DNA of 38,909 bases from a virus. Location of the stretch: IMG/VR virus record IMGVR_UViG_3300045257_000283, positions 1 to 38,909 of that record. The stretch is one strand, 5' to 3'. Shown piece after piece: positions 1,334 through 38,909 of the stretch (position 1 is its first letter; each line of letters begins with the position of its first letter). The translations under genes and the position numbers were made by a program. Under the pieces are notes generated by a model. The model was given only the letters and a program-made list of their open reading frames with translations. It was not told where the DNA came from and made no database searches.

Positions 1334-1337
1334 CGAT

Positions 1338-1511: not shown

Positions 1512-1554
1512 GAGTTCGTCCAGGCGGGACGTTAAAACGCTCTGAAGGTCACAC

Positions 1555-3843: not shown

Positions 3844-3856
3844 GGAGGAAACGAAT

Positions 3857-4282
3857 ATGCCAAGAACCTCATCTCATTTTGGTCTTCAGGACCCACGCTT
3901 CCAGTCCGTAGTGATGCCGTTAATCACTCCGGTGACGATCGCCGCGGCCGCCAACGCCACCTATACACCCGCTCAACTCCTGGGTGGGTGGATTAACCGC
4001 GATTGCAACGGCGGCGCGCGCACCGACACTCTACCCACGGCAGCTGCAATGTGTGAGGCCGTCCAGGGAGCAATGGTCGGTACAGCCTTCGACTTCGAGA
4101 TCCGCAACACCACCTCTACAGCCGTAGCGGTCACGCTGGCCGCGGGGGCAGGGGGCACGCTCAGTCCCGCTGCGACCACAGTGGCGCAGCTTGCGACCCG
4201 GACGCTGACATTCATCTTCACGAACGTGCAGCCGGGCCTCGAAACCTACACGGTATGGAGCCGTGGCGCCGGCACGTTCTAA
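3857..4282 (+). CDS. Small head-associated structural protein (putative decoration)
   Basis: A 141-residue protein 13 nt after the coat gene, with a strong GGGAGGAAACG ribosome binding site. The C-terminal two thirds are Thr/Ala/Gly-rich alternating beta sequence (ATTVAQLATRTLTFIFTNVQ), which suggests a compact beta fold. No cysteine cluster or catalytic motif is seen apart from isolated Cys residues near residues 50 and 66. Proteins at this position and of this style often decorate or cement the capsid, but that role is inference. An intrinsic terminator follows 18 nt after its stop, so it closes the first head transcript. Confidence 0.55.
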   Translation: MPRTSSHFGLQDPRFQSVVMPLITPVTIAAAANATYTPAQLLGGWINRDCNGGARTDTLPTAAAMCEAVQGAMVGTAFDFEIRNTTSTAVAVTLAAGAGGTLSPAATTVAQLATRTLTFIFTNVQPGLETYTVWSRGAGTF

Positions 4283-4300
4283 CGCTTTGCACCTTAGGCT

Positions 4301-4335
4301 GGGAGGGCCGGCAGGAACCCGGCCCTCTCGTTTTT
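4301..4335 (+). terminator. Rho-independent terminator after coat cluster
   Basis: A perfect 9-bp GC-rich stem (GAGGGCCGG at 4303-4311 with CCGGCCCTC at 4319-4327) encloses a 7-nt loop and is followed by TCGTTTTT. Two more pairs extend the base of the stem. It lies between the small structural gene and the next ORF, whose first possible ATG begins directly after the T run. It probably lowers expression of downstream genes relative to coat and scaffold. Confidence 0.9.
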
Positions 4336-4776
4336 ATGCCGCTAAACGAAGCCGGGGGGTATAACCTCGGCAACCTCACAGAGAAACAACAACGCGAGGC
4401 CGAGAGGGCAATCTATGGCCTGGCGGAAAGGGAACCCATGAGCCCCGAAACACTGAGCTACGAAGACCGCGTCAGGATGCGCCGTTTGCTTGACCAGATG
4501 GATCAGAAGGAGGCGGCCGGCGCGATGAGGGACTTCGACCTCAACAAGCCGCCGGCGCAGCCCTACGTGTACCGCGAGTTTCCATTCCTCCTGTATCACC
4601 ATGCGGACGGGAAGACGAAGCCCGCGCTCAACCCCGAAATGCGGGAGAAGATGCTGGCCGAGGGCTGGAGCGAAGCTCCATTCCCGGCTGAACTCCCCGA
4701 GATCCCCTTGACGGCCGCGGAGCATGCCGAGGCAGAGAAAATCGAGTCGCAGTTAACCAAGAGAAGGAGAGCGTAA
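4336..4776 (+). CDS. Hypothetical protein, paralogue of the next gene
   Basis: A protein of up to 146 residues of unknown function. Two starts are possible. The ATG at 4336 directly abuts the terminator and has no ribosome binding site. The ATG at 4438 is preceded by AAAGGGA at good spacing and gives 112 aa. The sequence between them looks coding (EKQQREAERAIYGLAERE), so the longer form is given. Residues following YREFPFLLYHHADGKTK match the downstream protein's YPEYPFLVYNHETRQTK, and both continue into a GW/GF..xPFP motif. The two genes therefore look like tandem duplicates. Such YP...Y....G short domains are frequent in phage head regions, but the role is not known. Confidence 0.75.
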   Translation: MPLNEAGGYNLGNLTEKQQREAERAIYGLAEREPMSPETLSYEDRVRMRRLLDQMDQKEAAGAMRDFDLNKPPAQPYVYREFPFLLYHHADGKTKPALNPEMREKMLAEGWSEAPFPAELPEIPLTAAEHAEAEKIESQLTKRRRA

Positions 4777-4777
4777 A

Positions 4778-5092
4778 ATGGCCCACCCGAATACTAAGAC
4801 AGAGCCGCAAGCGGCGCCCCCCGTGTTCACCGATCAGTATCCGGAATATCCGTTTCTGGTCTACAACCATGAGACCCGGCAGACCAAAGCTGCGATCGAT
4901 AAGCAGCACAGGGAAGAGCTCGCCAAGGAGGGCTTCGTCGACGTTCCATTTCCGCCTGAAGACGTCGATGCCCTTACGGAGTCCGAGGTGGCCCTGCTGC
5001 AGCAGCTGCTCGCCAAGGCCGCCAAGGCACTCGCGAAGCTCGGGAAGCTGAGCGAAAAACCGGAGCCGGCTAAAGCCTCGGACAAGAAATGA
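4778..5092 (+). CDS. Hypothetical protein, paralogue of the preceding gene
   Basis: A 104-residue protein with an excellent AAGGAGA ribosome binding site located in the end of the upstream gene. Its core, residues about 14-60, repeats the motif of its neighbour: YPFLVYNHETRQTK, then EELAKEGF and VPFPPED. The C-terminal third is an Ala/Leu/Lys-rich helix (LLQQLLAKAAKALAKL) ending in a charged tail. The stop overlaps the next start as ATGA. It lies between coat and head-completion genes, so a virion or assembly role is likely but unproven. Confidence 0.75.
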   Translation: MAHPNTKTEPQAAPPVFTDQYPEYPFLVYNHETRQTKAAIDKQHREELAKEGFVDVPFPPEDVDALTESEVALLQQLLAKAAKALAKLGKLSEKPEPAKASDKK

Positions 5093-5790
5093 TCAATCAG
5101 ATTCCGGACCTGCTACAAGATGCCCTGATCTACGTCGGGGCCTACGCGCAGGGCCAGACCCCGAATACCGACGACATGTCGCTCGCGTTCCGGATCTTGA
5201 ACCGGAAGATCGATAGCCTGTCCGCGGAGAAGCTCTCGATGGTCGGAATGCTGCGGTCTCAGTATCCGCTGACGGGCGCCCCCTCGTACACGTACGGATC
5301 CGGGATGCAATGGCAGACCACCAACCGCCCGATCAAGATCAAATCGGCATCAGTGCTGGCTGTCAACGGGGTGGAACGTCCCTGCAATATCCTGACGGCT
5401 GACCAGTGGGCCGCGGTGGCCGACAAGAGCCGCACCGGAGTCTACGCCGAGGACCTGTTCTACGATAACGGCTACCCTACGGGCGTTATCTACCTGAGCC
5501 CGATGCCGTTTGGCGGTACCGCGGTGCTCTGGACATTCCAGGCGATCGCGCAGTTGCCCGCGCAGACCGGCACGGTCGACCTGGCCCCCGGCTACGCCGA
5601 GACCTTCGTGGCGATCGCAGCGGTAGAGCTGTGCATCGCATTCCAGAGGCCTCTCACCGAGGAGCTCGCTTCCGCGGCCGGCCAGGCGAAGCAAGTGATC
5701 GCGCAACTGAACGCGGAGCTCTTTAACGCGCCGGCGCCCCCGCCAAGCGGCCCGGGGCCAACGGCGCCGCCGGCCTTGAGAACGACTTGA
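5089..5790 (+). CDS. Head-completion / DNA stabilisation protein, P22 gp4-like (copy 1)
   Basis: A 233-residue protein starting in an ATGA overlap. The N-terminal helical pair (DLLQDALIYVGAYAQGQTPNTDDMSLAFRILNRKIDSLS) and a central LFYDNGYPTGVIYLSPMP beta-hairpin region are typical of podoviral gp4-like adaptors. These bind beneath the portal after packaging and seal DNA in the head. A helical segment at residues about 160-215 (AETFVAIAAVELCIAFQRPL) follows, and the last 20 residues are Pro/Gly-rich. A second, diverged copy is encoded at 8065-8865. P22 gp4 is 166 aa, so this version is longer. Confidence 0.75.
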   Translation: MINQIPDLLQDALIYVGAYAQGQTPNTDDMSLAFRILNRKIDSLSAEKLSMVGMLRSQYPLTGAPSYTYGSGMQWQTTNRPIKIKSASVLAVNGVERPCNILTADQWAAVADKSRTGVYAEDLFYDNGYPTGVIYLSPMPFGGTAVLWTFQAIAQLPAQTGTVDLAPGYAETFVAIAAVELCIAFQRPLTEELASAAGQAKQVIAQLNAELFNAPAPPPSGPGPTAPPALRTT

Positions 5791-5804
5791 AAGAGTAAAC
5801 GAAC

Positions 5805-8051
5805 ATGTCCAATATCCTCCGCTCGACTCAATTCGGGTCTCCAGGCATCGCGCCGCAATCGCTCGGCATACCTACGGCGGCATATCCAGGACGCCTCGCG
5901 ACCGATTCCGATCTGATCGTAGCGGTCGATCGCCAGCAGACCATTCTGTTGCTCCCGTTGGGCACCGGTGATAACACAATGACCGTGCTCGACGCTTCAA
6001 TGATCCAGGCGTACAACCTCCTGTCGATCGATAACGAGATCGTCAAGAGCACCGGCGCGCCGACAGGCAATGTCATACCGGTCTCGCGTGGATTCGACGG
6101 CACGGTGCCTGCCGTCCACTTTGCCGGAACTGCGGTTGCCGGCCTGGTGGATGCTTACCACCACAACGGTCTGGTAGCGGAAATTAAGGCCATCGAACAG
6201 GCCCTCGGCCCGGGTCTCTCGAATATTTCCACGTCCCAGTCCGTGGTGAGCACCGATTATAAATTCGGGCCCGTAGTCTCGGGAGCGGGCGTATCGGTTT
6301 CCGGCGGCAATCTGGTCGTAGGCAACAACGTCCTGACGTTCGCCATCGTCCCTAAAGGCGTCAACGGGACCGACGTCGATCATTACCTCTGGATTGCTAA
6401 TGGGACCGGGACGGCCGAGGCCGTGAAGATCACGGGCGGCTCGGGCGTGGCAGGCCAGGCAAACGGGCAGATCATCGTGAACTGCGGGTTCACGCATTCA
6501 GGCGCATGGTCGGTAGAAAGCGCCTCGGCCGGCATTGCCGAGGCGTGCTCCGTAGTGGGCACGAGGAGCGGTGGGAGTATCCAAATACCGCCCGGTACAC
6601 ACGAAATGCGCGCGACGGTCAGGGTGACCGGGTTCACGACGATTCGCGGAGTGGGGCAGTACAACACCCGGCTGCACCGCACCGGCAATTACGGCAACAC
6701 ATTTGTAATGGGGTTCTCAAACGTGGGCGTGGACAACGTCTTAATCGAGGACGTGTTCTTTTACCACGAGCTTGGCTTTACCACGGGCGCCCCTCCGGTC
6801 GTGCTCAACAAGCCCACATCGGGAGCGCATTGCCAGGTGAACGGCGGCAATACCATCAGTTTTCGAAGATGCCGCTTTCAGGATCTGGTGACGGGCATCA
6901 ATATTCTCGGCGGCGCGCAGATCATGATCGACGACTGTGTCTTTCAGGGGCTCTGGTCGCCGGCGTATCCCGCCGGGCAAGTCACAGTAGCGGACATTCA
7001 AATCTCGAATGATGCGACCCTCGGCACCGCCACCTATATCAAAATCCGCGGGTGTCAACTCACCAACGGTTACCGCGGCCCAGCCAACGAGGTGTGGGGC
7101 TCGCGGTTTCGCGTCCTGGTCAATGGGGTCGAGGATCTGGAGATCCTGGGGGGCGCGGTTGCCGCGGCCGCGGTCAACAGCATCCAATTGCTATCGTTAG
7201 CCGGGGGAGGAGTCTTAGGCCAGGTCCGGATTACCGCGGGCGTGCGTTTCGACGGCTCGACAGGCGCCGATATCAACGTTACCAACGATGGATCGGGCCA
7301 GGTAGGGCACCTCTCGGTCGTAGGTTGTCAGTTTAACGGGCAGCGGCTCGGCTTGTCGTTCCCCTATTCGGTGAATGCGATTTTCGTGGCTGACAACGGG
7401 AGCGGCGCGAATGCTCTGGTAGGGCTTGAGGTTTCCGACAATGAAATGTTCAACTACGATGGGCCGCCGGTGCGGCTTCAGGATGGCTTGAACTTCTTGA
7501 TTGCGGACAACATCATCTACATGTACAACCTGCACGGCTTCACGGATCTGACCGCAAGCGGCATCCTCATCGGCGGGCGAGCCAACAACGGATTGATTCA
7601 AGGCAACCTGATCGGTGGAGACAACACCGGGGCCAACGCCTACGGAGTCGGCAACAATAAGTGCCTGTTCGGGATCGGCCTGTTGGGCCCTCCAACATCG
7701 GTAACTTTGGTTGATAACTATGCACCGTTTTTCACGGCCATCGGCACTCCTACCGACTCGATGTTTGCGGCCTACACCAGCCGGTCGTATTTCATCGCCA
7801 CCGAAACCGGCGCCAACAACGCGATAGCCGCCAGTTATGCCGGCTTGCCCCCGATTCCCGGCATCACCGTCTCCGTGAGAGTCGCTCATTCGCTCCAGGC
7901 TGGCGCGAACACGTTCAACCTGAACGGGACCGGAGCCAAGCCGATCCGCAGCTCTTACAATCCAAATCTGAATATCGCCAACGCCTACGTGGTCAACGCG
8001 GTCATCAACCTGCAATACGACGGCACCAACTGGCTCGATCTGTCGCAGTAG
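5805..8051 (+). CDS. Tail spike with right-handed beta-helix domain
   Basis: A 748-residue protein with weak GAAAGAG upstream of its ATG. Residues about 1-120 form a Gly/Pro-rich N-terminal module containing LSIDNEIVKSTGAPTGN and RGFDGTVPAVH, a motif common at the head-proximal end of phage spikes and fibres. From residue about 225 the sequence becomes a solenoid of short V/I-rich strands with Asn/Gly turns (TFVMGFSNVGVDNVLIEDVF, then NTISFRRCRFQDLVTGINIL), typical of pectate-lyase-like right-handed beta-helices that bind or cut surface polysaccharide. The C-terminal roughly 90 residues are a separate beta module. Enzymatic activity cannot be decided from sequence. It probably determines host range. 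Confidence 0.82.
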   Translation: MSNILRSTQFGSPGIAPQSLGIPTAAYPGRLATDSDLIVAVDRQQTILLLPLGTGDNTMTVLDASMIQAYNLLSIDNEIVKSTGAPTGNVIPVSRGFDGTVPAVHFAGTAVAGLVDAYHHNGLVAEIKAIEQALGPGLSNISTSQSVVSTDYKFGPVVSGAGVSVSGGNLVVGNNVLTFAIVPKGVNGTDVDHYLWIANGTGTAEAVKITGGSGVAGQANGQIIVNCGFTHSGAWSVESASAGIAEACSVVGTRSGGSIQIPPGTHEMRATVRVTGFTTIRGVGQYNTRLHRTGNYGNTFVMGFSNVGVDNVLIEDVFFYHELGFTTGAPPVVLNKPTSGAHCQVNGGNTISFRRCRFQDLVTGINILGGAQIMIDDCVFQGLWSPAYPAGQVTVADIQISNDATLGTATYIKIRGCQLTNGYRGPANEVWGSRFRVLVNGVEDLEILGGAVAAAAVNSIQLLSLAGGGVLGQVRITAGVRFDGSTGADINVTNDGSGQVGHLSVVGCQFNGQRLGLSFPYSVNAIFVADNGSGANALVGLEVSDNEMFNYDGPPVRLQDGLNFLIADNIIYMYNLHGFTDLTASGILIGGRANNGLIQGNLIGGDNTGANAYGVGNNKCLFGIGLLGPPTSVTLVDNYAPFFTAIGTPTDSMFAAYTSRSYFIATETGANNAIAASYAGLPPIPGITVSVRVAHSLQAGANTFNLNGTGAKPIRSSYNPNLNIANAYVVNAVINLQYDGTNWLDLSQ

Positions 8052-8064
8052 AGAAGAGGCCGAT

Positions 8065-8865
8065 ATGTCTCAATTTGACGCAGCTCTGTTCAATGGGGCG
8101 GTACTCGGTGGCGGCCTACCTCCGGTCACCATAAAGTGCCGCGACGTGCTGTATATCGCCTTCAGGGAGGCGCGCATTTTGAAGCGTCCGCAGGGGCTCA
8201 ATTCGGACAACGAATTGATGGACGGCATGATCTTCCTGAACCAGCAGATCAACTACTGGGCTGCCCGAAACTGCTACGCCTACACCACCACGTTCAACGT
8301 CTACACGTTGACTCCCCAACATCAACCGCACCTGATCGGCCCCAACCTCACCGCGCCGGAATTAACGGCCCCGATCAGGCCGGTGGACATCAAGTCCGCG
8401 GCTATCATCCTCACCGGTCCGATGCCGGTGGACGTCCCGGTCAAGCTGCGGGATAACGCCTGGTGGGCGAACACCCGGGCCAAGACCGTGACTAGCAGCG
8501 TGCCGGCAGACCTTTACTACGAGCCCGACTATCCCAACGGAGCATTGTGGTTCTGGCCGGTCCCGTCGTTCGGTTACGGTCTGCGCCTCGAGACCACCGT
8601 TCAGCTACAGGAATTCCTGACTCTTGATGATCCCTTCGTGGCGCCGCAGGCGTACCGTGCGGCTGTGACTCTGACGCTCGCCGAGGAGCTCTGCGATATC
8701 TGGGGAACCGAGACACCCCCCAACCTCCCGCGGAGGGCCCTAAAGGCCCGGGATGCCCTCCAGAGCAATAACAACCTGCCGCCCAGAATTGCGAGCGCAG
8801 ACTTCGGCACTTTCTCGCGGCCGAGTGGCGACTTCAATTACGTGACCGGCACGATTCCGGAATAA
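8065..8865 (+). CDS. Head-to-tail connector, P22 gp4-like (copy 2)
   Basis: A 266-residue protein downstream of the spike, with AGAAGAGG upstream. It shares with the 5089-5790 product an N-terminal helical block (DVLYIAFREARILKRPQGLN, then ELMDGMIFLNQQINYWAAR), a central DLYYEPDYPNGALWFWPVPS hairpin motif and a C-terminal helix with LAEELCDIW. Both therefore look like members of the gp4-like adaptor family. The C-terminus ends in DFNYVTGTIPE, a tail repeated in the next small protein. It probably forms a second ring or a distinct adaptor between portal and tail hub; the division of labour between the copies is inference. Confidence 0.72.
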   Translation: MSQFDAALFNGAVLGGGLPPVTIKCRDVLYIAFREARILKRPQGLNSDNELMDGMIFLNQQINYWAARNCYAYTTTFNVYTLTPQHQPHLIGPNLTAPELTAPIRPVDIKSAAIILTGPMPVDVPVKLRDNAWWANTRAKTVTSSVPADLYYEPDYPNGALWFWPVPSFGYGLRLETTVQLQEFLTLDDPFVAPQAYRAAVTLTLAEELCDIWGTETPPNLPRRALKARDALQSNNNLPPRIASADFGTFSRPSGDFNYVTGTIPE

Positions 8866-8870
8866 TTCCC

Positions 8871-9044
8871 ATGACGCCTCGCGAGGAGTTCCACGCCGCG
8901 GTGGGGATTCTCGAGGAGACCATGACCCGGCTGGCACTACTCCTGCAGTGCTTCCGGCGCCTCGAGGAGACGCTCGTGTTCGAAGAGAAGGCCGACTTCA
9001 ACTTCATGACGGGCACGCTGCCGGCCGACAAAGAGAAGCAGTAG
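8871..9044 (+). CDS. Small protein sharing the connector's C-terminal tail
   Basis: A 57-residue protein starting 5 nt after the connector stop; no convincing Shine-Dalgarno is seen, so translation may be coupled. It is a single amphipathic helix (EEFHAAVGILEETMTRLALL onward) followed by DFNFMTGTLP. The last motif repeats the DFNYVTGTIP end of the preceding connector, so both proteins could dock the same partner. Conserved position between connector and tail hub suggests a structural accessory role. Confidence 0.75.
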   Translation: MTPREEFHAAVGILEETMTRLALLLQCFRRLEETLVFEEKADFNFMTGTLPADKEKQ

Positions 9045-9046
9045 AC

Positions 9047-11038
9047 ATGGCACGTTTCGACGCGTTTCTAGGACCGTTCAATACATCGATCAGCCCCAAC
9101 ATCCAGAGCGAGCTGACGATGAACTGGATACCGGAGAGGAACGCTGTGCCTGTGAACGAGATGGGCACGGGGGTGACAGACAAGAACATCCGTTGCAGTC
9201 TGATCCGCACCCCGGGCCTGGCGACGTTCTGCAATCTCACTCCGCATGTGCCGGTGCGGTGTCTCTTCCCTGGCGAGAAGCGGTTGTTCGCGGTAAGTGG
9301 TGATCACTTCTTTGAGCTATTCGCAGATGGGCACTATGTAGACCGTTCGGTCCCTGGCTTTACCGGGGCCTCGGGCAGCGGGCCGGCCGGCGGCGCGATC
9401 GGCAACGACGGCCGGCCGGCGCAATGCTTCGCCAACGGGAATCAGGTACTCATCATCTCTGCCGGCGCGGCCTATCTGGACAACGGCAACGGGCCGGTCC
9501 CGATTCAATTCTCCGACCCCCTCACGGACTTACTGGTCGATCCCACTGATGCCACAGGTAGAACACTCACGAAGCCGATACCGGGCTTCTTCGACGCCAC
9601 CGATGTGGGGCGGACGGTATTCCTCACCGAAGGCGCCGGATTCAATGTCGGCCTTTCGCAACCCATCCTGTCGGTCAACGTTGATGGTGGAGCGGTCGGC
9701 GCGTCTGCCTGGGGAGCACCGGGGGCGGGCCTTGGTGTCGGCGTCGAATACCTGAGCGTCTCTTACGTCGACCTGCAGTTGATCCAGCCCTTCATGATTA
9801 AGTCGGTGTCCCGTCCGTTCGGGCCATCATCCATTGGTGCGACACTCACAATCACATCAGGCGCCGGTTTCACCCCGGGGGTATACACGATCACTGGCCT
9901 GGTGTTCGACCTCTCGGGAAACCCGACAGGCAATGCCCTCATCACCCCGGACGCCGGCGTGGCCGGCGCGTCCGGGGGCGTAGCCGCGGCCGCGGTGAGC
10001 CCGGTCACGGCAAGCCAGGGAGCATTCCTCGACGGCTATTTTTTCCTGGTGCCAAATCCGCCCACCAAGACCGTCTACTTTTCAGCGATCAATGACGGCA
10101 CGAGCTGGAATCCCTTGGACTTCTTCACTAAAGCGAATTATCCGGACAATGTGGCGGCACTGTTTAGCGATCACCAGGAGCTCTACACGCTGGGGAGCCT
10201 CGAGTCCACGCAGGTAATGCGCGACGTGGGCTCCGCGGACAACCCGTTCGCCCCCGATCCCGGCGCCGCGATGCATGTGGGCTGCCAGGCGCCGTTCTCG
10301 GTGGTGCGCCTCGGCAACGGGGTGGCATGGATCGGAGAGGACATGCGTAGGGGCTTCCGGCGCGCCTACCACGCCGTTGGCTACAACCCGGTGCCGGTCT
10401 CGACGCCCGCGGTGGAGGCGGCCTGGTCGAAGTTCTCGACGATCAACGATGCGGTGGCCTTTACGATGGCCGATTGCGGGCACGAGTGCTGGGTCATCAA
10501 CTTCCCGGGCGCCAATCAGACGTGGGTGTACGACGCGACCACCGGGTGGTGGCATCAGCGCGGATGGTGGAACACGGCGGCCGGCAACTGGGACCGTATC
10601 CGCACGTGGGTCCATACCTGCGCGCGCCTGGCCGGCGGGACCGGCGAGCTGCACTATGGCGGGGACTGGAGCACCGGACAGGTCTACGTCATGGCGCAGA
10701 ACTACAAGACGGATGACGGCCATGTAGTCTGGCGGCGCCGCCGGGCTCCGCATTTAACCAGTGAGAACATGCGGCGTTTCTACGCCCGTTTCGAGATCGA
10801 CTGCGACGTACAAGGGGCGCAGAGGATCTTCTGGAATCGCTTAGGCAACGGCCGCGATCGCATCTGGCAACTCGACACGATGCAGGCATCGGAGACCGGC
10901 GTCACCACGATGGCACTGTCCTTCAGCGATGACCGCACCCAAACCTTCCAGGCCATGTTCCCTCAGACCGTGCCGGCCGGCATAGACGTCCAGCTCGCAA
11001 ACGCTTACCTGAACGACACGAACGCAACCTGGCACTGA
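9047..11038 (+). CDS. Tail hub / packaged DNA stabilisation protein, P22 gp10-like
   Basis: A 663-residue protein. The ATG at 9047, just after the preceding TAG, is preferred to upstream in-frame starts that would overlap the preceding gene. The N-terminus (ARFDAFLGPFNTSISPN, ELTMNWIPERN, RTPGLATF) is the characteristic opening of gp10/stabilisation proteins, which begin with the statement of a set of parameters and a beta-propeller-like body. The C-terminal half has YFSAINDGTSWNPLDFF, GAAMHVGCQAPFSVVRLGN and TWVYDATTGWWHQRGWW, also typical. It would form the hexameric hub joining connector to spikes and needle. Residues about 165-330 are an inserted Gly/Ala-rich beta region that makes it longer than P22 gp10 (472 aa). 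Confidence 0.85.
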   Translation: MARFDAFLGPFNTSISPNIQSELTMNWIPERNAVPVNEMGTGVTDKNIRCSLIRTPGLATFCNLTPHVPVRCLFPGEKRLFAVSGDHFFELFADGHYVDRSVPGFTGASGSGPAGGAIGNDGRPAQCFANGNQVLIISAGAAYLDNGNGPVPIQFSDPLTDLLVDPTDATGRTLTKPIPGFFDATDVGRTVFLTEGAGFNVGLSQPILSVNVDGGAVGASAWGAPGAGLGVGVEYLSVSYVDLQLIQPFMIKSVSRPFGPSSIGATLTITSGAGFTPGVYTITGLVFDLSGNPTGNALITPDAGVAGASGGVAAAAVSPVTASQGAFLDGYFFLVPNPPTKTVYFSAINDGTSWNPLDFFTKANYPDNVAALFSDHQELYTLGSLESTQVMRDVGSADNPFAPDPGAAMHVGCQAPFSVVRLGNGVAWIGEDMRRGFRRAYHAVGYNPVPVSTPAVEAAWSKFSTINDAVAFTMADCGHECWVINFPGANQTWVYDATTGWWHQRGWWNTAAGNWDRIRTWVHTCARLAGGTGELHYGGDWSTGQVYVMAQNYKTDDGHVVWRRRRAPHLTSENMRRFYARFEIDCDVQGAQRIFWNRLGNGRDRIWQLDTMQASETGVTTMALSFSDDRTQTFQAMFPQTVPAGIDVQLANAYLNDTNATWH

Positions 11039-11040
11039 AT

Positions 11041-12813
11041 ATGGCGAACACCAAACAGGCGCCGATACCAGTCATTCCGGCCACGATGAAGATCGTGAAT
11101 CCGGATGGCACGGTCACACGATCAGGGCAGCAGCTACTCCAGCAACTCCAGGCCTCCAACATAGGCTCCGGAGTTCATGCGGACCGGCCGCTTCCCGGCG
11201 ACATGCCTGACGGTGCAATCTGGGTCGACGCCGACAGGGGAGTCATCTACCAGAACCAGGGAGGGAATTGGCAATACATTGCGGGGACGATGTACGGCAC
11301 ATTGGTTCCGGACCAGAGGCCCGCTGATCTTGGAGCCTATGACGGAGGCTTTGAGTTTCGGGCCAATGATACCGATCCGGCCTACAGGGGACGCGATTTT
11401 GTCTGGTCGGGGACCGCATGGGTCGAGACCACTCCGGTACTCTACGGTCCGCACGCTGACCGTCCGGACGCAACCGACGCGCCGGCACGATGCCTATACG
11501 TCGAGCAGGATCGCGGCAGCGTGCTCTATCAAAACCAGGGGAGTGTCTGGCAGTACATCGCGGGCATCATGTACGGCACGCTGGTACCCGATCAGCGGCC
11601 AACTGACCTCGGACCGGCGGCCGATGCCGGATTCCAGTTCCGTACAAATGTGGATCCTGCACAGGCCTTTACCTGGTCCGGGACCGAATGGATCGAAACC
11701 ACGCCGATCCGATACGGGACGCACGCCGATCGGCTGGCCGCGCCAATCGCGGATCTCGCTTCCGGCATCCTCTGGATGGAGACGGACCGCGGCTCCGTCA
11801 TCTATCAGAACCAGGGCGGGGTATGGCTATTCCTCACCGGAACGATGTGGGGCACTCTCGTGCCCGATCAGCGGCCTACCGATCTTGGTGTCCATGATGC
11901 CGGCTTCGACTTTCGCAGTACAGTGGCGCCGCCGCGTGAATTCATCTGGAATCAGGTGGCGTGGGTGGAAGTTACGGCTCTCGTGGATCCGACGACGGCG
12001 AAAGGTGATCTGATCGCGCGCGGCGCCGCGGCGCCGCCCGGCCGGCTTGCCGCGGGAACGGACGGCCAGGTATTGAGTGCGGATTCCACGCAGGCGCTCG
12101 GCCTCAAGTGGATAACGCCGGCGGCCGGAAGCACCCAGACACCGTGGACGGGCAACATCAATGGCGCGGGATTCAAGCTAATCAACACGGGCCAGGTGGG
12201 CATCGGAACCGCTTCTCCTACGGGTGTCCTGAACGTAAACGATGCGGCCGGCGGTGGCGTGATACTCAGGCTTCAGAACACCGGCACGAACGCATTCGAC
12301 TTTATCCGCTACACCGGGACCGGCGCACTGACGATCCAGGGCACGCAGTCCGGTTTCAACCATATCGTGTTGTGCCCGACCAGCGGCAATGTCGGCATCG
12401 GGCTTGGGACTGCCGCGAATCCGACCAACCAGCTACAACTCGGCCTCGATTCCGCGGGCAAGCCGTCCACGTCCACCTGGAGCGTCGTTTCCGATCTCCA
12501 GTTGAAGCAAAATGTGGAGCCCGTAAGCGACGATTCGCTCGCCATCCTGGGAACACTCGACTGGGTGCGCTATGAGTACAACGGGCTGGCAGGCACGCCG
12601 AAAGGGGCCAAAGGGATCGGCCTGGTGGCGCAGGAACTCCAGAAGCAGCTGCCGGAAGCGGTGCGGAGCACCAAAACGAAGCTCAATGAAACGGACGATG
12701 CCGAGGCCGACGTCCTGACAATCGATTATCACCACGTAATTGTGCATTCGGCGCGCGCGATTCAGCAGTTGGGTGCGGAGATAAAAGCTCTCAAAGCGCT
12801 CTTGAAACCCTAG
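11041..12813 (+). CDS. Tail fibre with S74 intramolecular chaperone
   Basis: A 590-residue fibre protein starting 2 nt after the tail hub gene. Residues about 44-313 consist of three consecutive copies of a roughly 90-residue repeat (see the repeat entry). Residues about 350-480 are Gly/Asn-rich short beta repeats (GNINGAGFKLINTGQVGIG, then GNVGIGLG). The last roughly 107 residues form a peptidase S74 chaperone: Ser484-Asp485 in SVVSDLQLKQNV is the usual autocleavage dyad, followed by KGIGLVAQELQKQLPEAV and a C-terminal coiled coil. S74 domains drive trimerisation and then cut themselves off. The protein is therefore a second host-recognition appendage beside the spike. Confidence 0.88.
   Translation: MANTKQAPIPVIPATMKIVNPDGTVTRSGQQLLQQLQASNIGSGVHADRPLPGDMPDGAIWVDADRGVIYQNQGGNWQYIAGTMYGTLVPDQRPADLGAYDGGFEFRANDTDPAYRGRDFVWSGTAWVETTPVLYGPHADRPDATDAPARCLYVEQDRGSVLYQNQGSVWQYIAGIMYGTLVPDQRPTDLGPAADAGFQFRTNVDPAQAFTWSGTEWIETTPIRYGTHADRLAAPIADLASGILWMETDRGSVIYQNQGGVWLFLTGTMWGTLVPDQRPTDLGVHDAGFDFRSTVAPPREFIWNQVAWVEVTALVDPTTAKGDLIARGAAAPPGRLAAGTDGQVLSADSTQALGLKWITPAAGSTQTPWTGNINGAGFKLINTGQVGIGTASPTGVLNVNDAAGGGVILRLQNTGTNAFDFIRYTGTGALTIQGTQSGFNHIVLCPTSGNVGIGLGTAANPTNQLQLGLDSAGKPSTSTWSVVSDLQLKQNVEPVSDDSLAILGTLDWVRYEYNGLAGTPKGAKGIGLVAQELQKQLPEAVRSTKTKLNETDDAEADVLTIDYHHVIVHSARAIQQLGAEIKALKALLKP
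11170..11979 (+). repeat. Three tandem ~270-bp repeats within the tail fibre gene
   Basis: Copy 1 is 11170-11445, copy 2 11446-11715 and copy 3 11716-11979. Each encodes G(V/P/T)HADR, a D/E-DRG-V-YQNQG segment, a W-x(2)-(I/L)-x-G-x-M segment, GTLVPDQRP and W....W(V/I)E(T/V)T. Lengths of 92, 90 and about 88 codons show small indels. The copies are diverged at DNA level, so the duplication is not recent. They probably form modular shaft or receptor-contact units. Confidence 0.9.
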
Positions 12814-12844
12814 GCGGCAAGTAAGAACAAAGGAGACAAACGAT

Positions 12845-13172
12845 ATGGCATATACGACACCCCCCGGTCGGAACGATCCTGCCGGCTCAGCAAAACACTA
12901 CCGTGCCGAATCCCGGTCCTGTGCATTCAGCCCACGGCAATGATGAATGGCTGCAAGCGCAAGCGCAGGACAAGGCCTTCGAGCAGAACCTGGTCCTCGT
13001 CGAGGAATGGCAGAATGCAGCCAAAGACTCCCCAGCATACGCAGAGCAGTTGGGCAGCAAGCCTGTCTGGGCGGTAGTCGTGATCGAGGCTGAAGCGGGC
13101 GGGGTCACGTTCGACCAGCAGCGAGTCGGAGTCCCGCTCAAATCTTGGGAGCATCCGGCGCCAACCTCCTAG
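12845..13172 (+). CDS. Small tail-region protein with apparent +1 frameshift at a C6 run
   Basis: AAGGAG lies 8-9 nt before the ATG at 12845, the best start in the region, but this frame stops after 32 codons. Skipping one base in the C run 12860-12865 joins it to the frame ending at 13172. The result is a coherent protein of about 108 aa that opens MAYTTPPVGTILPAQQNTTV and continues into GNDEWLQAQAQDKAFEQN and a Val/Ala-rich C-terminus. The downstream frame alone has only a GTG at 12903 with no ribosome binding site. Either the site CCC-C is used for programmed +1 frameshifting, or one C is an indel (sequencing, assembly or real mutation). No function is recognised. Confidence 0.65.
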
Positions 13173-13174
13173 AA

Positions 13175-13654
13175 GTGATCTCCATTGGACGCTCGAAAGA
13201 CTTCCGGTTGGTCTGGGGGATCCTGACCGAACCGGAGATCTACCCGTTGATTGGAGACGACTTCTCGCCTCCCTGGTGGAGATTCCGGGTCAATGAGCAC
13301 CCGGACATCTGGTATGTCGCAGTCCACGATGCGGGCAGATTGATCGGCATGTTCAGCCTGGTGCCACAGAACCGCGTGTGCTGGGAGTTGCACGCGGTGA
13401 TGCTGCCGGGCGCCGGCACGGTCGAGAAGTGGCGCGCGGCGCGTGCGCTGCCGGCCTGGCTTGCAGAGAACACCGAGTGCCGGCGCCTGACGGCCGCGGT
13501 ACCGGCCTGCAACGGTCCGGCGATCGCCTACGGCACGCACGGGATTGGGATGCATTACGTGGGCCGCCAGGTCAAGGCGTTCCAGAAGAACGGGCAGCTG
13601 CATGACCTGGTTCTGCTCGGACGGTCCATAGGGGAAGTAAAATGCCAAGCTTAG
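13175..13654 (+). CDS. GNAT-fold acetyltransferase-like phage protein
   Basis: A protein of about 159 residues. The GTG at 13175, 2 nt after the previous stop, is preferred because family members start a few residues before the (R/D)-x-V-W-G-I-L-T-E-P-E-I-Y-P-L segment; a TTG at 13145 would add 10 residues. The body shows the GNAT order: strand WYVAVHDAGRLIGMFSLVP, strand CWELHAVMLPGA, a helix (WRAARALPAWLAEN), the strand RRLTAAVPACNGPAIAYG and GIGMHYVGRQVKAF. Similar small acetyltransferase-like proteins occur beside tail and ejection genes in P22-like phages (DUF2824 type). Substrate is unknown, and activity is not certain because the acetyl-CoA loop is not textbook. Confidence 0.75.
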   Translation: MISIGRSKDFRLVWGILTEPEIYPLIGDDFSPPWWRFRVNEHPDIWYVAVHDAGRLIGMFSLVPQNRVCWELHAVMLPGAGTVEKWRAARALPAWLAENTECRRLTAAVPACNGPAIAYGTHGIGMHYVGRQVKAFQKNGQLHDLVLLGRSIGEVKCQA

Positions 13655-14580
13655 TCACAAGCGTCATCGGTGGAATTCAGGGGGCGAGTGCATCGCACCA
13701 CGCCGCGGACTACCTGCAGCAGGGCTACAAGCAGGCCGGCCAGACGGTCAACGACGCAGTCAGCCAAGTCAACCCGGACATCCTGAAGACCGCGGCCGAT
13801 GCCGGCGCGGGAGTCAGCACCGCGGCCAATACCGCCGGCCAGGGAATGACCACCGCGGCCGGCGCGGCGGGCACCGGCGCCACCACCGCGGCCGAGAGGC
13901 TGACGGGCATGCTCGACCCGTACATCTCGATGGGCTCCACCGCGGCCGGGCAGCTGGGGGACGCCAGCAAGCCATTTACCGCGGACATGATGGCGAAGTA
14001 TTCGCCGGCGTACCAGTTCCAGCTCCAGCAGGGGCTGCAAGGCGCCGCGCGCGCCGCGGCCGCCGGCGGCATGACCGGGTCCGGCGGCACGATGAAATCA
14101 CTCAGCCGATACGCACAGGACTACGCCGGCACCGCATTCAAGAACGCGAACGATATCTATAACCAGAATTTCAGCAGGCTCGCCACGCTGGCCGATATGG
14201 GACGGGGCGCCGCCACAACGGCCGGCCAGGCCGGGCTGCAGGCCTCAGAGTACGCCGGCACCGCGGGCATGCAGGGAGCGGAATACGCGGGGAACGCCGG
14301 CATGCGAGGCGCAGAGTACGCCGGCAACGCCAACATCAACGCGCGTAATTTGGCCTCTTCCAATACCCTGTCCGGAGCCAACTACCTCGCCAACACGCAG
14401 ATCGGATCCCAGCAGGCCCGTGCGTCGGGCGACCTCGGCGCGGCTAGTGCCTGGAACGGGATGCTGGGGGGCATCGGCGCCGCGGCTAACACTGCGGTGA
14501 TGGGCGGATTCGGGGCTGATGGCGGATGGAGCTTCAGCAACATCGGAAAGAACATCGGGTCATCGTGGGGGAAGAAGTAG
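13642..14580 (+). CDS. Internal virion / DNA ejection protein 1 (small, Ala/Gly-rich)
   Basis: A 312-residue protein overlapping the end of the GNAT gene by 13 nt, with GGGGAAG upstream of the ATG. It is extraordinarily rich in Ala, Gly, Thr and Asn (TAANTAGQGMTTAAGAAGTG) and contains three 11-residue AG..GAEYAG(N/T) repeats (residues about 197-229). The first of three ejection genes in a row, it corresponds in place and composition to the gp7-like DNA-transfer proteins of P22-like phages. These are carried in the head and enter the cell envelope during infection. The helix-rich middle contains KYSPAYQFQLQQGLQ, a motif frequent in this family. The family call is inference from composition and context. 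Confidence 0.7.
   Translation: MPSLVTSVIGGIQGASASHHAADYLQQGYKQAGQTVNDAVSQVNPDILKTAADAGAGVSTAANTAGQGMTTAAGAAGTGATTAAERLTGMLDPYISMGSTAAGQLGDASKPFTADMMAKYSPAYQFQLQQGLQGAARAAAAGGMTGSGGTMKSLSRYAQDYAGTAFKNANDIYNQNFSRLATLADMGRGAATTAGQAGLQASEYAGTAGMQGAEYAGNAGMRGAEYAGNANINARNLASSNTLSGANYLANTQIGSQQARASGDLGAASAWNGMLGGIGAAANTAVMGGFGADGGWSFSNIGKNIGSSWGKK
14230..14328 (+). repeat. Three 33-bp tandem repeats in ejection protein gene
   Basis: Units at 14230-14262, 14263-14295 and 14296-14328 encode AGLQASEYAGT, AGMQGAEYAGN and AGMRGAEYAGN. The third position of codons varies, so selection acts on the peptide. A fourth, degenerate unit (ANINARNLASS) follows. Confidence 0.85.
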
Positions 14581-22529: not shown

Positions 22530-22753
22530 GGCGCCCACGTGCCCGCTTCGTCGACCTCTCCCGGGTAATCATCGGCGCCACCCAGAAGCCCTCCCAGACC
22601 GGGCGAGCGGTGCCGGCAGTACGCGTCCCCCTCAAGACCAAGCACCGCGGCCAGTGCCACATCTGCGGCGGCGCCCGGGTCATCGAATCGGCCGTACCGG
22701 GCGTCACGCATCTCTGTCCGATTTGCACGGGGTACCAGTCATGCGGTCTTTAA
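22526..22753 (+). CDS. Small zinc-ribbon protein
   Basis: A 75-residue protein starting with GTG in a GTGA overlap. Its C-terminal half contains CHIC (residues 44-47) and CPIC (64-67) separated by 16 residues, a classic four-cysteine zinc ribbon. The N-terminus is basic (RRPRARFVDLSRVI). It probably binds nucleic acid or a partner protein. Its own end overlaps the HNH gene start by 13 nt. Confidence 0.7.
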   Translation: MRRPRARFVDLSRVIIGATQKPSQTGRAVPAVRVPLKTKHRGQCHICGGARVIESAVPGVTHLCPICTGYQSCGL

Positions 22754-23109
22754 CCAGCTACCTGATGTACGCGGTGCACGGTAAGAAGGCCCCACGCCGG
22801 GCGCCGCGGCGCCGCACCGGCCGCGGACCGGTCCGCGATCGCAAGTACCTCTCCTGGATCCGCACGCTTCCCTGTGCAGCCTGCGGAACCACCCACGAAG
22901 TGCAGGCAGCCCACACGGGTTCCGATGGCGGAATGCGCCAGAAGGCCAGCGACACCACTTGCGTACCACTCTGCCACGATTGCCATCAGGCGGCGCCGGT
23001 CTCCTACCACCGCGATCGCGCCGGCCTCGGCATCGACTTCACGGCACTGGTGGAGCGCTTGAACGAGGTGTACTCTGGCATGGCGGAGTACGCGAGGGGG
23101 CAGGAATGA
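22741..23109 (+). CDS. HNH-type nuclease, DUF968/Ref-like
   Basis: A 122-residue protein. The ATG at 22741 inside the end of the previous gene is chosen, as longer in-frame starts are antisense-like in composition. After a basic N-terminus (APRRRTGRGPVRDRK) come C45-A-A-C48, the AAH at 56-58, a GMRQKASDTTCVPLC segment with C78-H-D-C81-H82, and a helical C-terminus. This Cys4/His layout (CxxC ... AH ... G.....SD...PLC..CH) is that of the DUF968/Ref recombination-associated HNH nucleases of lambdoid phages. It probably nicks or processes DNA in phage recombination. It lies in the first, divergently transcribed early operon. Confidence 0.8.
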   Translation: MRSLTSYLMYAVHGKKAPRRAPRRRTGRGPVRDRKYLSWIRTLPCAACGTTHEVQAAHTGSDGGMRQKASDTTCVPLCHDCHQAAPVSYHRDRAGLGIDFTALVERLNEVYSGMAEYARGQE

Positions 23110-27712: not shown

Positions 27713-27798
27713 CGTCGCCGCCCGCTGCGATCCCCTCGGGAAACGTCGATCACCAGCAGGGCCAGCACAATCACCGCAACCGCCATAATCACTTCCAT
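27709..27798 (-). CDS. Tiny membrane protein (29 aa)
   Basis: A 29-residue frame (MEVIMAVAVIVLALLVIDVS, then a basic RGDRSGRRR tail) starting inside the end of the HNH gene (10-nt overlap) with GGAG 5 nt upstream. It is a single hydrophobic helix with a positively charged C-terminus. Its stop overlaps the GTG of the MerR-like gene. Too short for automatic gene callers. Its role is unknown. Confidence 0.55.
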   Translation of the reverse strand: MEVIMAVAVIVLALLVIDVSRGDRSGRRR

Positions 27799-28088
27799 AG
27801 CTTCTCCAGCAGCGGCCGGCCGCGGTCCTTACGCGCCCGCCTGGTTTCGCGGGCCTTGGCGGCCCATATGTCGTAATCGATCGCGTGGTGACAGCGGGAA
27901 CAGACCGCGGCCAGGTTCTCCAGGTCATCGTTGCGCGGGTTCTGATCGAGGTGCGCCACATCAAGGCCGCCAATGGGGATTATGTGGCAACGCTCGCAGC
28001 GGCCGCCGCAACGCGCCAAAATCTTCGGACGGGTCTGGGTGCGCCACTTGTGGCCGTAAAGCTTTTTCAGTTCAGGAGCGATCGGCAT
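27789..28088 (-). CDS. HNH endonuclease
   Basis: A 99-residue HNH nuclease: C31-E-R-C34 and C63-S-R-C66 form the structural zinc site, AH at 45-46 supplies the first catalytic His, ENL at 57-59 the Asn and HH at 67-68 the last His (LDVAHLDQNPRNDDLENLAA). Small stand-alone HNH proteins in phages act in packaging (near terminase) or as homing or host-DNA nucleases. Here it is far from the terminase and inside an early operon, so a homing or genome-processing role is more likely. It overlaps the upstream gene by 17 nt. Confidence 0.88.
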   Translation of the reverse strand: MPIAPELKKLYGHKWRTQTRPKILARCGGRCERCHIIPIGGLDVAHLDQNPRNDDLENLAAVCSRCHHAIDYDIWAAKARETRRARKDRGRPLLEKLWK

Positions 28089-28299: not shown

Positions 28300-28562
28300 A
28301 CGCCCACCTTCGAAAGATCCACCATCACCGGCCGGCGCATCAGCGACGGATCGCTCCCGAACCGGAAAAATCGCTGTAGCGGGTTGGGTTCGTCCAGGAA
28401 TTCTATCTCGATCATGTGGAGCGCGTGCTCGGCCAGCCTTTCGGCGTGATCGTTCGCCAGGATCGCTATCCTCGCATCGAGTTCCGCATCGTCGTCCAGC
28501 ACCAGCAGATCTTCGAACTGCTGCTCGCCGGCAACATAGCCGCGGATCGCCAGTCGGATCAT
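28296..28562 (-). CDS. Hypothetical acidic helical protein
   Basis: An 88-residue protein; the ATG at 28562 in the ATGA overlap with the radical SAM gene is chosen, because upstream in-frame codons lie in that gene. Acidic helical middle (FEDLLVLDDDAELDARIAIL, ERLAEHALHMIEIEFLDEPN). No family. It is directly coupled to the radical SAM gene and could be its accessory protein, which is speculation. Confidence 0.68.
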   Translation of the reverse strand: MIRLAIRGYVAGEQQFEDLLVLDDDAELDARIAILANDHAERLAEHALHMIEIEFLDEPNPLQRFFRFGSDPSLMRRPVMVDLSKVGV

Positions 28563-29398
28563 ATGCTGACTCCTACCGCTTGCCTCGAATGGATGATGAT
28601 TGGGCGCGCCCACTGCCTCTGAAAACTTCTCCAGGCCGGCGCGGGCCGGTGCTTCTCTGCGGTTGGTGTTTCGGGTTGCCAGAGCATCGCATGGGGAGTG
28701 AAGCCGATTCGCAGCATATCGCAGAGCCTCTTTTCTGCGGCGTCGAATGTGTCCTTCGGGTATCCGATCAGCACATAACAGCGCAGCCGGTGTGAGCAAG
28801 CGGTGAAACCGGCGCCAATCAACCGCTCGGCAGCACTCTTCAGCGTTTCGAACGGGTCGCCTGGATCATAGGCAAAGAAGCAGTTCGGCCGCGGTTTCAG
28901 ATCTGCCAGGAGGCCCACTTGGTAATCCTGAAGGGCTAACGCCTCGAGGCCGCCGGTAAACTCGATGCGCCGGCCCTGCCGGGCCAGCATCGCGAAGACC
29001 GCGCGCACATGAGGCTCGGGGCACGCTAGCAGATTATCGTCCAGGATATTCCAGCCAGCCTGGATAGGGAGCAGCCGCGGCACCGGATCCCGCTTCCAGA
29101 CAGAACAGAACCAGCATCGACGCGGGCAGCCGCGGGATGTGAAGGTGTAGCCGTCTTTGATGTATTTTCCAGGAACGAATTCGCAGCCTGGATCGCCGTA
29201 GGCAACCCCACCAACCTTGACCGGAGCCACATTCGACCATGCCGCAGCCAGTGCTTCCGCCCGCTCCTTGTCCGCGGTGAACGTGCAGTCCACATGGACC
29301 TCATCCGCTTCAGCAAACAGATCCGGTGGACCGTAAAACGCCAGATCGTCATCGGGGGTGGCTTTGGTCTTCCGCGGGAATACACGAGCCAGTTTCAT
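28559..29398 (-). CDS. Radical SAM enzyme
   Basis: A 279-residue protein with the radical SAM cluster motif Cys91-P-R-R-Cys95-W-F-Cys98 (TSRGCPRRCWFCSV), which holds a 4Fe-4S cluster used to cleave S-adenosylmethionine. Downstream are elements of the (beta/alpha)6 barrel: ILDDNLLAC (119-126), RIEFTGGLEAL (144-154), YVLIGYPKDTFDAAEKRL (208-225). The first 80 residues are an N-terminal extension with no clear motif; the protein lacks an evident TRAM or SPASM Cys-rich tail, so substrate class is open. It is tightly coupled to a small zinc-ribbon gene upstream and a small acidic gene downstream. Nucleobase, tRNA or protein modification are all possible. Confidence 0.85.
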   Translation of the reverse strand: MKLARVFPRKTKATPDDDLAFYGPPDLFAEADEVHVDCTFTADKERAEALAAAWSNVAPVKVGGVAYGDPGCEFVPGKYIKDGYTFTSRGCPRRCWFCSVWKRDPVPRLLPIQAGWNILDDNLLACPEPHVRAVFAMLARQGRRIEFTGGLEALALQDYQVGLLADLKPRPNCFFAYDPGDPFETLKSAAERLIGAGFTACSHRLRCYVLIGYPKDTFDAAEKRLCDMLRIGFTPHAMLWQPETPTAEKHRPAPAWRSFQRQWARPIIIHSRQAVGVSI

Positions 29399-30714: not shown

Positions 30715-32103
30715 TCAGTCACCGGCCACTCCCTGCTCGCGGGCCAGTTCCGGAAATTGATCCAGTGCCCGTTGCTGTTCGTCCGCGTCGAATTCCTGCC
30801 AATTGTCGCGGACATACGCGATGCGTTCTGCCTTCCGTTCTTCTTCTCTTCTCAGTTCCGTCCTCACGTTCTGGAGATCCACTCCCGTGCACATCGTTGG
30901 AACGTGCTTGATAAGGAGCCCAGTAACGCTGTGGATCTTTCCTTTCCGGATCTGCTCGCGTGCTGCGTGGAGCTTCATGGCTGCCAGTGCGACAATCTCC
31001 GGGGCGGTGATCGTCTTCTCAGCAGCTCTGCACCCGGCTACCAGTCGGCGAGCCGCATCTCCGTCAACGCTCAGTTCCTGGATTATGAGCGCTTCCATGT
31101 CCATAGTAGAATCGGCGGCGGCGTTCTTCAGAGACGCCGCCGCCGGAATAGAATCTTCCATCGATGGAGAAGTGCCGCGCAGAGAAGTTCTCTGAGACTC
31201 TAAAACCGCACGTTTGGAACCATCCCCGGAAGCCTTGCCCGTAGCTGGAGTTACCTTCCCTTTCTCCGGTTTTTCAACGGTCTGTACAACCGGGGTTTCT
31301 GATGTTTGTACAGACCCGTCCGATGTTTGTACGGACCTTTCCTCAAAGGTCTGTACAAACTTTTCCAGGCCGGGAAGAAACTCTTGGACCAACTTGACGC
31401 GGACCGGCGACTTGGCCGCGCCGTTCTTCGGTTTGTGCTCCTCGCGAATCTTCTTTATCCCGAACTTGTCGAATATGGTATTCTCACGTTGGTCGAAGAT
31501 GAGCCGAACCGCCACAGTGACATCCGCGTGCACGTCCTTATATAGCCGCTCGTTTCGCTCGTACTCGGTCTCAAAGTTCTTTCGCTTCGCTTTTGGTAAA
31601 CGCTTGATTTGTAAGCGCAAATAGGGTGGAAAAAGGTCTGTACAGACTAGTTTCGCTTTCTCTTCGCCTTTTTCGGTATTCGAATCATCTTCCTCTTGGC
31701 TCTCCTGATCTCCCTGCTCCTCTTCTAATCCGGCTGGTACGGGCACTACCTTTGCATTGAGGAATAGCTGCCGTTTGTCCGCCGCGTTGGTCCCCTTCCG
31801 CCAGAGCCCAAGGGCAAACCCATCGCGCCATGCGCGCCGGCACACTCCCGGGTCCATCTTTAAATCGACCGCGGCATCTTCCACTGAGAGGGGCCTCCCG
31901 CGCTCGTCGCACACGTAGCCTTTCCGACGACCCTTCCGTATCGTGTGGGCGCACATCCACGACCAGAGTCTGAAGACATTGATGCCCGGGTTCGTAGCCA
32001 GCATCATCGGCCATGCGTGCTGATCGGGAGGGATCGGATCGAAGTAGCCGCCTTTCGACCCCAAGGCCTTCATTAAATCCTGAGGGGATAGGTCGGGCTT
32101 CAT
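30715..32103 (-). CDS. Replication initiation protein (putative)
   Basis: A 462-residue protein with GGGAGA 6-7 nt before the ATG. Residues about 35-105 resemble a winged helix (NVFRLWSWMCAHTIRK, PLSVEDAAVDLKMDPGVCRR, AWRDGFALGLWRKG), as in phage replisome organisers and plasmid Rep proteins. A long acidic and then basic linker (about 125-330) contains VQT four times (residues 250-275), encoded by iteron-like repeats. Residues about 365-425 (KTITAPEIVALAAMKLHAAR, GLLIKHVPTMCTG) form a helical C-terminal domain of the kind that binds the replicative helicase. The layout is that of lambda O: DNA-binding head, ori in the middle of the gene, helicase-loader-binding tail. No helicase or polymerase gene is seen, so host enzymes are probably recruited. 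Confidence 0.7.
   Translation of the reverse strand: MKPDLSPQDLMKALGSKGGYFDPIPPDQHAWPMMLATNPGINVFRLWSWMCAHTIRKGRRKGYVCDERGRPLSVEDAAVDLKMDPGVCRRAWRDGFALGLWRKGTNAADKRQLFLNAKVVPVPAGLEEEQGDQESQEEDDSNTEKGEEKAKLVCTDLFPPYLRLQIKRLPKAKRKNFETEYERNERLYKDVHADVTVAVRLIFDQRENTIFDKFGIKKIREEHKPKNGAAKSPVRVKLVQEFLPGLEKFVQTFEERSVQTSDGSVQTSETPVVQTVEKPEKGKVTPATGKASGDGSKRAVLESQRTSLRGTSPSMEDSIPAAASLKNAAADSTMDMEALIIQELSVDGDAARRLVAGCRAAEKTITAPEIVALAAMKLHAAREQIRKGKIHSVTGLLIKHVPTMCTGVDLQNVRTELRREEERKAERIAYVRDNWQEFDADEQQRALDQFPELAREQGVAGD
31279..31360. repeat. Iteron-like repeats, candidate replication origin
   Basis: Four copies of a GTTTGTACAGACC-type site: 31279-31290 (reverse), 31304-31316, 31325-31337 and 31348-31360 (reverse). 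The TGTAC(A/G) cores are 24, 21 and 24 bp apart, i.e. close to two helical turns. A fifth, fully palindromic copy GTCTGTACAGAC lies at 31636-31647. All five are within the initiator gene. Copies in inverted orientation argue against simple duplication of coding repeats only. Confidence 0.65.
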
Positions 32104-37908: not shown

Positions 37909-38909
37909 TCTCCGAAGACTCCGTCGACCTCTACGGGCGTGAGAGGGGCGAGCGGAGCTCTGATCCGGACGAGGAGCTCCTGCAGGAGATCCGCGACCGC
38001 TATCGGGCCTATGACACCGAGTGGTCGAAGCTCCGCGAAGAGCGGGACACCGACCTCGCGTACATCTGCGGAGACCCGTGGGACGCGAAGGACCGGAAGG
38101 CCAGAACAGATGCCGGCCGGCCCTGCATCAACCACGATGAGCTGGGCCAGTACGTAAACCAGTGCGTCAACAACGTCCGGCAGAACAAGCGCGGCATCAA
38201 GGTGGACCCCGAGGGAGAAGGCAGCAACGATCAGAGCGCAGCCCTACGCCAGGACCTGATCCGCACCATCGAATACGACTGCAACGCTGCCTCCATCTAT
38301 GCCGGCGCCTACCAGGATATGGTGGAGGGCTCTTACGCATTCTTCCGGATCGGCCGGCGCTATGTGGCGGAAGACGTGGAGTCCGATGACCCGAAGCTTT
38401 TCGACCAGGAAATCGTAATCAAGCCCATCAGCAACCCCAACAGCGTGCTTTTCGATCCGAGGTGTAAAGAGCCGGACTGGAGTGATGCGCGCGCCTGCTT
38501 CGTGCTTGAGCGTGTGCCGAAGAAGGAATTCCGGGTCAGGTGGCCCGACGCGCGCATGACCGATTTTACCTGGTCGGACCAGAGCTTCGCGTCGGACTGG
38601 ATCTTCGACCAGGACGTACTGGTAGCGGAATACTGGCGCGTGGAAATCAAGCGCAAGAAGCGCTACCTGCTCGAGGACGGCCAGGTGGTATACGAGCCCC
38701 GCGGCCGGCCGGTGGACAAAGAGCGCTGGGTGCAGGAACGCAACGTAATGCAGTACCTCACCAACGGCATGGAGATCCTGGAGCGGTCCGCGGCGCCGGA
38801 GCCCGGCACCATCATCCCAATCATCCCGATGGTGGGCCTGCAGCGCTACAGGGGCACGGGCAGGATTCTGTTCTCCCTGGTTCGCCTGGCGCGCGATCCG
38901 CAACTGAGT
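37905..38909 (+). CDS. Portal protein, N-terminal part (P22 gp1-like)
   Basis: The first 335 residues of the portal, starting with GTG in a GTGA overlap with the small upstream gene. Helical opening (EELLQEIRDRYRAYDTEWSK), then DTDLAYICGDPWDAKDRKAR, CINHDELGQYVNQCVNNVRQ and NKRGIKVDPEG, a signature of P22-type portals, and the wing domain (VISNP-like SNPNSVLFDPRCKEPDWSDA). The frame runs off the window end and continues at base 2, giving about 736 aa in total. The stretch 38783-38909 is the same DNA as 1-127. Confidence 0.95.
   Translation, partial: MISEDSVDLYGRERGERSSDPDEELLQEIRDRYRAYDTEWSKLREERDTDLAYICGDPWDAKDRKARTDAGRPCINHDELGQYVNQCVNNVRQNKRGIKVDPEGEGSNDQSAALRQDLIRTIEYDCNAASIYAGAYQDMVEGSYAFFRIGRRYVAEDVESDDPKLFDQEIVIKPISNPNSVLFDPRCKEPDWSDARACFVLERVPKKEFRVRWPDARMTDFTWSDQSFASDWIFDQDVLVAEYWRVEIKRKKRYLLEDGQVVYEPRGRPVDKERWVQERNVMQYLTNGMEILERSAAPEPGTIIPIIPMVGLQRYRGTGRILFSLVRLARDPQLS
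38783..38909. repeat. Terminal direct repeat, right copy (assembly overlap)
   Basis: Identical to 1-127. One copy should be removed to circularise the genome; see the left copy. Confidence 0.95.

Follow-up and report, generated by a model that had tools for sequence, protein, structure and literature searches.

Does a set of short near-palindromes inside a phage gene act as DNA, forming the replication origin of the phage within its initiator gene, or does it spell out a repeated peptide? The question is raised by a soil phage genome of 38.9 kb (IMG/VR record IMGVR_UViG_3300045257_000283, positions 1-38,909); this whole stretch of 38,909 nt is called here the window. Judging from relatives, the host is probably a member of the Acidobacteriota. 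Because of a 127-bp direct terminal repeat (1-127 and 38783-38909), the window is probably a complete, circularly assembled phage genome, and the absence of further copies of the sites would therefore hold genome-wide. Terminase genes were found with Pfam and PHROG and a tyrosine integrase with Pfam, and no DnaB-type helicase family was detected in the phage. Other genes observed were a radical SAM-like protein in the early region (28559-29398, minus strand) and two small HNH-endonuclease-like genes, one with a PHROG match (22654-23109, plus strand) and the second judged by eye from its translation (27789-28088, minus strand).

The candidate replication initiator gene, P0001, is an open reading frame of 462 aa on the minus strand (30715-32103). 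Its product was divided into a presumed winged-helix N-terminal region, a middle region, a disordered linker whose coding sequence holds the sites, and a helical C-terminal domain. No significant match was obtained in Pfam, PHROG, NCBIfam, PDB, annotated phages or plasmids, and the best PHROG match (E 0.07) belonged to a family that is not an initiator. The AF2 model, built from three sequences, reached an overall pLDDT of 47, being confident at about 334-458 only and falling to about 25-33 in the linker; a PDB search with a model of this quality was rejected as meaningless.

Five near-palindromic sites with the consensus GGTYTGTACARACC, each matching it at 12-13 of 14 positions, were located in the gene where the initial annotation had placed them. 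All are given on the minus strand. Site 1 (31635-31648, AGTCTGTACAGACC) is read as L-V-C-T-D, and its 12-bp core at 31636-31647 is indeed the perfect palindrome GTCTGTACAGAC. The others form a cluster: site 2 (31348-31361, AGTTTGTACAGACC, encoding FVQT), site 3 (31324-31337, GGTCCGTACAAACA, SVQT), site 4 (31303-31316, GGTCTGTACAAACA, SVQT), and site 5 (31279-31292, CGGTTGTACAGACC, VVQT). The cores of the cluster begin at 31283, 31307, 31328 (TGTACG), and 31352, in agreement with the reported spacing of 24, 21, and 24 bp. VQT had been assigned to three of the sites; it is encoded by all four of the cluster, in a single frame, and the two orientations ascribed to them carry little meaning, the site being a near-palindrome. 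When the whole window was scanned with TTTGTACAGACC at one mismatch or less, five matches were found, all within 31279-31646, and none lay outside the P0001 gene, as had been noted before. The TGTACA word also occurs without the flanks at 7522, 27007, and 36500, which is about the number due to chance (2.58 expected in total). Cumulative GC skew, proposed earlier as a check, had no extreme at the sites (minimum at 10261, maximum at 20619); the lack of a turn there counts against an origin, and skew was dropped as an origin mark.

Homologues, their site sets, and the AT-rich stretch

A first whole-protein scan of genome contigs with P0001 gave no match; the N-terminal part as query then found L007, a Bryobacterales contig with 31-34% identity to P0001 in the alignment. 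A motif-only scan of viral contigs retrieved L055 (profile E 3e-74) and L166 (2e-25), homologues that had been missed by earlier protein searches, and a five-sequence profile then yielded L170, L171, L172, and L174 together with the genome loci L176-L179. A first DNA-pair scan had retrieved three repeat proteins, all unrelated, and among the matches listed in a second motif scan most were unrelated two-site proteins, so that it was used as a source of candidates only. A search of viral contigs with P0003 gave no match.

All five sites are kept in L002 (94%). In L007, site 1 is retained together with two sites of the cluster, and the motif is not scattered over genomes: there is no copy elsewhere in the phage, and in the 5.3-Mb genome of L007 the GGTYTGTACARACC 14-mer occurs three times, each time in the homologous gene. 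Homologues sharing 25-35% of the protein retain sites, partly in other frames. Site 1 is kept in L002, L007, L055, L166 (twice), L171, L172, L176, and L178, appears as TGCGCA in L170, and is found in a different frame in L174; about 255-330 bp separate it from the cluster in the phage-type members, and about 290 bp in the window.

The number of sites was compared with synonymous-codon shuffles within each gene, in which protein and codon usage are held fixed. The P0001 gene has 4 TGTACA words against 0.7 expected, a count reached in 6 of 2000 and 3 of 1000 shuffles. Most members also stood above their shuffles: no shuffle in 1000 reached the counts of L007 (3), L055 (5), L166 (6), L172 (6), L176 (6), or L178 (5), while those of L174 (3) and L171 (2) were reached in 5 and 46, respectively. 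The full-length homologues L177 and L179 have one TGTACA or none and no significant in-gene repeat, which would argue against an origin in the gene; the single word of L177 falls outside the conserved part, and L179 has one.

Site 1 is surrounded by an AT-rich stretch of low stability (31591-31690), a candidate DNA-unwinding element. Its AT content is 60% compared with a mean of 39%, which places it in the top 0.16% of the window, and by stability it ranks with the three lowest 100-bp windows of the phage. In 11 of 11 members checked, site 1 coincides with the AT maximum of the locus or comes close to it. Its rank among the windows of each locus is about the top 0.1% or better in L002, L007, L055, L170, L171, L172, and L178, then 0.16% in the window, 0.5% in L174, 1.1% in L166, and 2.2% in L176. 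An AT-rich stretch combined with candidate initiator sites looks like an unwinding element, and the conserved peptide could partly explain the AT richness at site 1.

It could also be postulated that the sites serve as operators, with P0001 acting on them as an in-gene roadblock to repress the operon it belongs to, the origin being elsewhere. A repressor would just as typically have near-palindromic sites and a winged helix, and the position of the P0001 gene puts it at the head of a group of leftward genes; however, no site is present upstream of the gene, and an operator would not usually comprise four or five in-gene sites together with a conserved AT-rich stretch that lies 400-500 bp inside the gene. 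We consider this role improbable.

ParA-linked relatives

A profile of P0001, L002, and L007 found relatives of the C-terminal domain in Acidobacteriota genomes (hhalign probability 96, E 2e-9), and further profile rounds enlarged the family. These distant homologues carry in-gene repeats of their own, specific to each lineage and in most cases exceeding the synonymous shuffles: GTTTCATCC in L014/L015/L033, CTGTAAGCGA in L013, and TTGAACGTTCAA in L028/L029. The in-gene repeat test was not passed by L191, L193, and L194, nor by L177 and L179. Some of the relatives are on islands, tyrosine integrases are near two distant ones, and searches of plasmids with the island homologues gave no match. 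No report of the family was found in the open-access literature, and one may exist elsewhere.

Similarities to replication proteins were found in several of these relatives. L040 matched a PHROG "replication initiation protein" (E 2.4e-6), L041 has a C-terminal DnaA_N-like stretch whose E of 0.0017 is below the curated cut-off, and a 62-column C-terminal stretch of the island relatives is weakly similar to RPA (PF10134; hhalign probability 89, RPA Pfam E 3e-7). Pfam scans of P0001 and its relatives detected no RepA_N (PF06970). The RPA, DnaA_N, and PHROG links hint weakly at replication initiation. In the AF2 model of an island relative, the domains were well predicted, with a winged helix at a pLDDT of about 90, and the linkers were disordered. 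The winged helix superimposed on the initiator structures 4pql and 4pt7 with Z of 9.1 and 8.7 and rmsd of about 6.5, values tied with those of unrelated CRP/MarR-type wHTH; because it matches many families, the fold cannot separate an initiator from a partition protein.

Taking into account that in most loci checked a ParA ATPase gene lies directly upstream of the island homologues, the in-gene sites could be a parS-like centromere and P0001 the DNA-binding partner of ParA, the arrangement in the phage being a remnant or depending on a host ParA. The modelled winged helix also resembles the pNOB8 centromere-binding protein, and in L018/L013 and L027 copies of the repeat reach outside the gene. 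Against this, searches for ParA/AAA_31 in the phage and in the L002 contig gave none, and ParA was absent from the other phage-type loci in the stretches scanned; moreover, neither the AT richness at site 1 nor the presence of initiator-type domains in the relatives is a partition feature. A centromere in place of an origin seems therefore quite unlikely.

Some ParA-linked relatives showed features of their own. L041 (88-2127, plus strand; L207) encodes 680 aa and has about 16 in-gene repeats of the ACAGTGCTCA type, together with its DnaA_N-like C-terminus. L027 is short (270 aa) and has no C-terminal domain; TACGGTA-type repeats precede parA, recur within the gene, and follow it, and five TTACGTT..AGTACGG repeats are upstream as well; the repeat stretches are at 155-390, 1635-1740, and 2195-2236. 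The L017 island (1120-13683), which contains a ParA-linked relative, also bears genes for a DNA methylase, for a restriction subunit of type III-like kind, and for a member of the HamA family.

Conservation of DNA and of peptide

Conservation inside the sites was compared with that of the flanking codons, as the initial annotation had suggested. Among residues identical in P0001 and L007, the codons are identical in 8 of 11 cases inside the sites and in 44 of 123 elsewhere. Of the three site codons that differ, two stay on the GGTYTGTACARACC consensus and the third alters the last base only. The annotation had also considered that relatives might keep VQT and lose the core; what was found is the opposite, with TGTACA held while peptide and frame change. 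Across the homologues the word is read in three frames, giving xVQT, VCT, and LYK or LYR, the last frame being that of L166, L172, and L176.

A particular case is L170, which has no TGTACA and six TGCGCA (1.07 expected; 0 of 1000 synonymous shuffles). These TGCGCA sites are distributed over three frames at about the same places as the sites of the relatives, with site 1 doubled as in L166, and the peptides change accordingly from VQT to AQT or AHT and from VCT to VCA. The concerted switch fits a changed DNA recognition that was tracked by all sites, because a peptide function would not predict it. Selection seems to preserve the DNA sites and not a protein repeat. That VQT is a linker motif binding a partner protein, with the DNA similarity as a by-product, is hardly credible: even though four sites give VQT in one frame and VQT pairs with TGTACA were found in unrelated phage proteins too, the same word is also read as VCT and LYK, the conserved site 1 uses a different frame, synonymous shuffles fail to give the observed counts, and L170 alters peptide and core together.

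The proposed origin and known in-gene origins

It is likely that P0001 is the replication initiator of the phage and that its gene contains the phage origin. The in-gene origin first put forward in the initial annotation is supported by the conservation at the DNA level, the conserved AT-rich stretch, the absence of a phage DnaB, and the initiator-type domains and matches of the relatives. The name of initiator would come from distant relatives that share mainly the C-terminal domain, P0001 itself matching no known initiator family. In the proposed mechanism, the N-terminal winged-helix region would bind the five TGTACA-type sites, presumably as a dimer considering that these are palindromic; the four-site cluster (31279-31361) would collect the initiator in the vicinity of site 1; the AT-rich stretch would melt; and the C-terminal domain would recruit the host helicase and the replisome. 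With no helicase of the DnaB type detected in its genome, the phage would have to recruit that of the host. Sequence-specific binding, melting, helicase recruitment, and replication are all predicted activities.

The family is absent from Pfam, PHROGs, and NCBIfam, and its best reading is an in-gene origin that would work like those of lambda O or pSK41 Rep. More tentatively, it may be an unclassified family of initiators that extends over phages of Acidobacteriota and integrative elements linked to ParA. Every lineage would then have an origin of its own written into the linkers of the initiator and could swap the whole set, from TGTACA to TGCGCA, when recognition shifts; in the ParA-linked members, the sites may also serve partition. 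In-gene origins are known from a few model replicons. The family would offer a natural range of initiators that come with their own sites in the gene, where the same motif occurs in different frames, one set has been switched, and distant members have unrelated motifs, so that the co-evolution of initiator and site becomes directly testable. It would also offer small self-contained replicons for Acidobacteriota, for which replicating tools are scarce, and in-gene site sets could be a route to origins in unannotated mobile elements.

By comparison with known systems, the likeness to lambda O is one of function. In lambda and the Stx phages the initiator gene holds iterons in its middle with an AT-rich tract adjoining (PMC7466680), and P0001 likewise has candidate sites repeated inside a candidate initiator gene, an AT-rich tract, and a presumed reliance on the host helicase. 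The P0001 sites are, in contrast, 14-bp near-palindromes, and the AT-rich part lies about 290 bp from the cluster, which may be counted against the origin reading; no lambda P-like helicase loader was identified in the phage, and no homology with P0001 was detectable in O-like PHROGs or annotated phages. In pSK41 Rep, four Rep boxes are located centrally in rep, which encodes a wHTH N-terminal domain, a site-encoding linker, and a separate C-terminal domain, and the origin-encoded linker is dispensable in trans (PMC5703833). With this RepA_N type P0001 shares the in-gene sites, the site-encoding linker, and the separate C-terminal domain, its N-terminal wHTH being presumed; however, its family is found in phages and Acidobacteriota islands and not in Firmicutes plasmids, the motif varies by lineage, and the RepA_N Pfam was unmatched in P0001.

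The repC gene of repABC plasmids contains the origin inside its coding sequence near an AT-rich region, without iterons in the case described, and adjoins partition genes (PMC3155836). The island relatives of P0001 adjoin parA in a similar way, but site sets are the main feature of the P0001 family, and no homology was found. As for PF10134, the likeness is the weak one in the C-terminal stretch of the island relatives; the RPA genes L042 and L045 have no significant in-gene repeats, and P0001 has no RPA match.

A similar arrangement was observed in L126 (IMGVR_UViG_3300001336_000030), which came from a motif scan, where convergence and selection of the match are indistinguishable. Comparison of A1 with L126 revealed no homology beyond VQT, and the L126 protein, unrelated to P0001, matched DnaD-like loaders as well as O-like initiators weakly in PHROG. 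In its gene (3746-5959, minus strand) TGTCTGTACAGACA occurs three times and a variant of it once, at a spacing of 21 bp, with a stretch of 76% AT adjoining.
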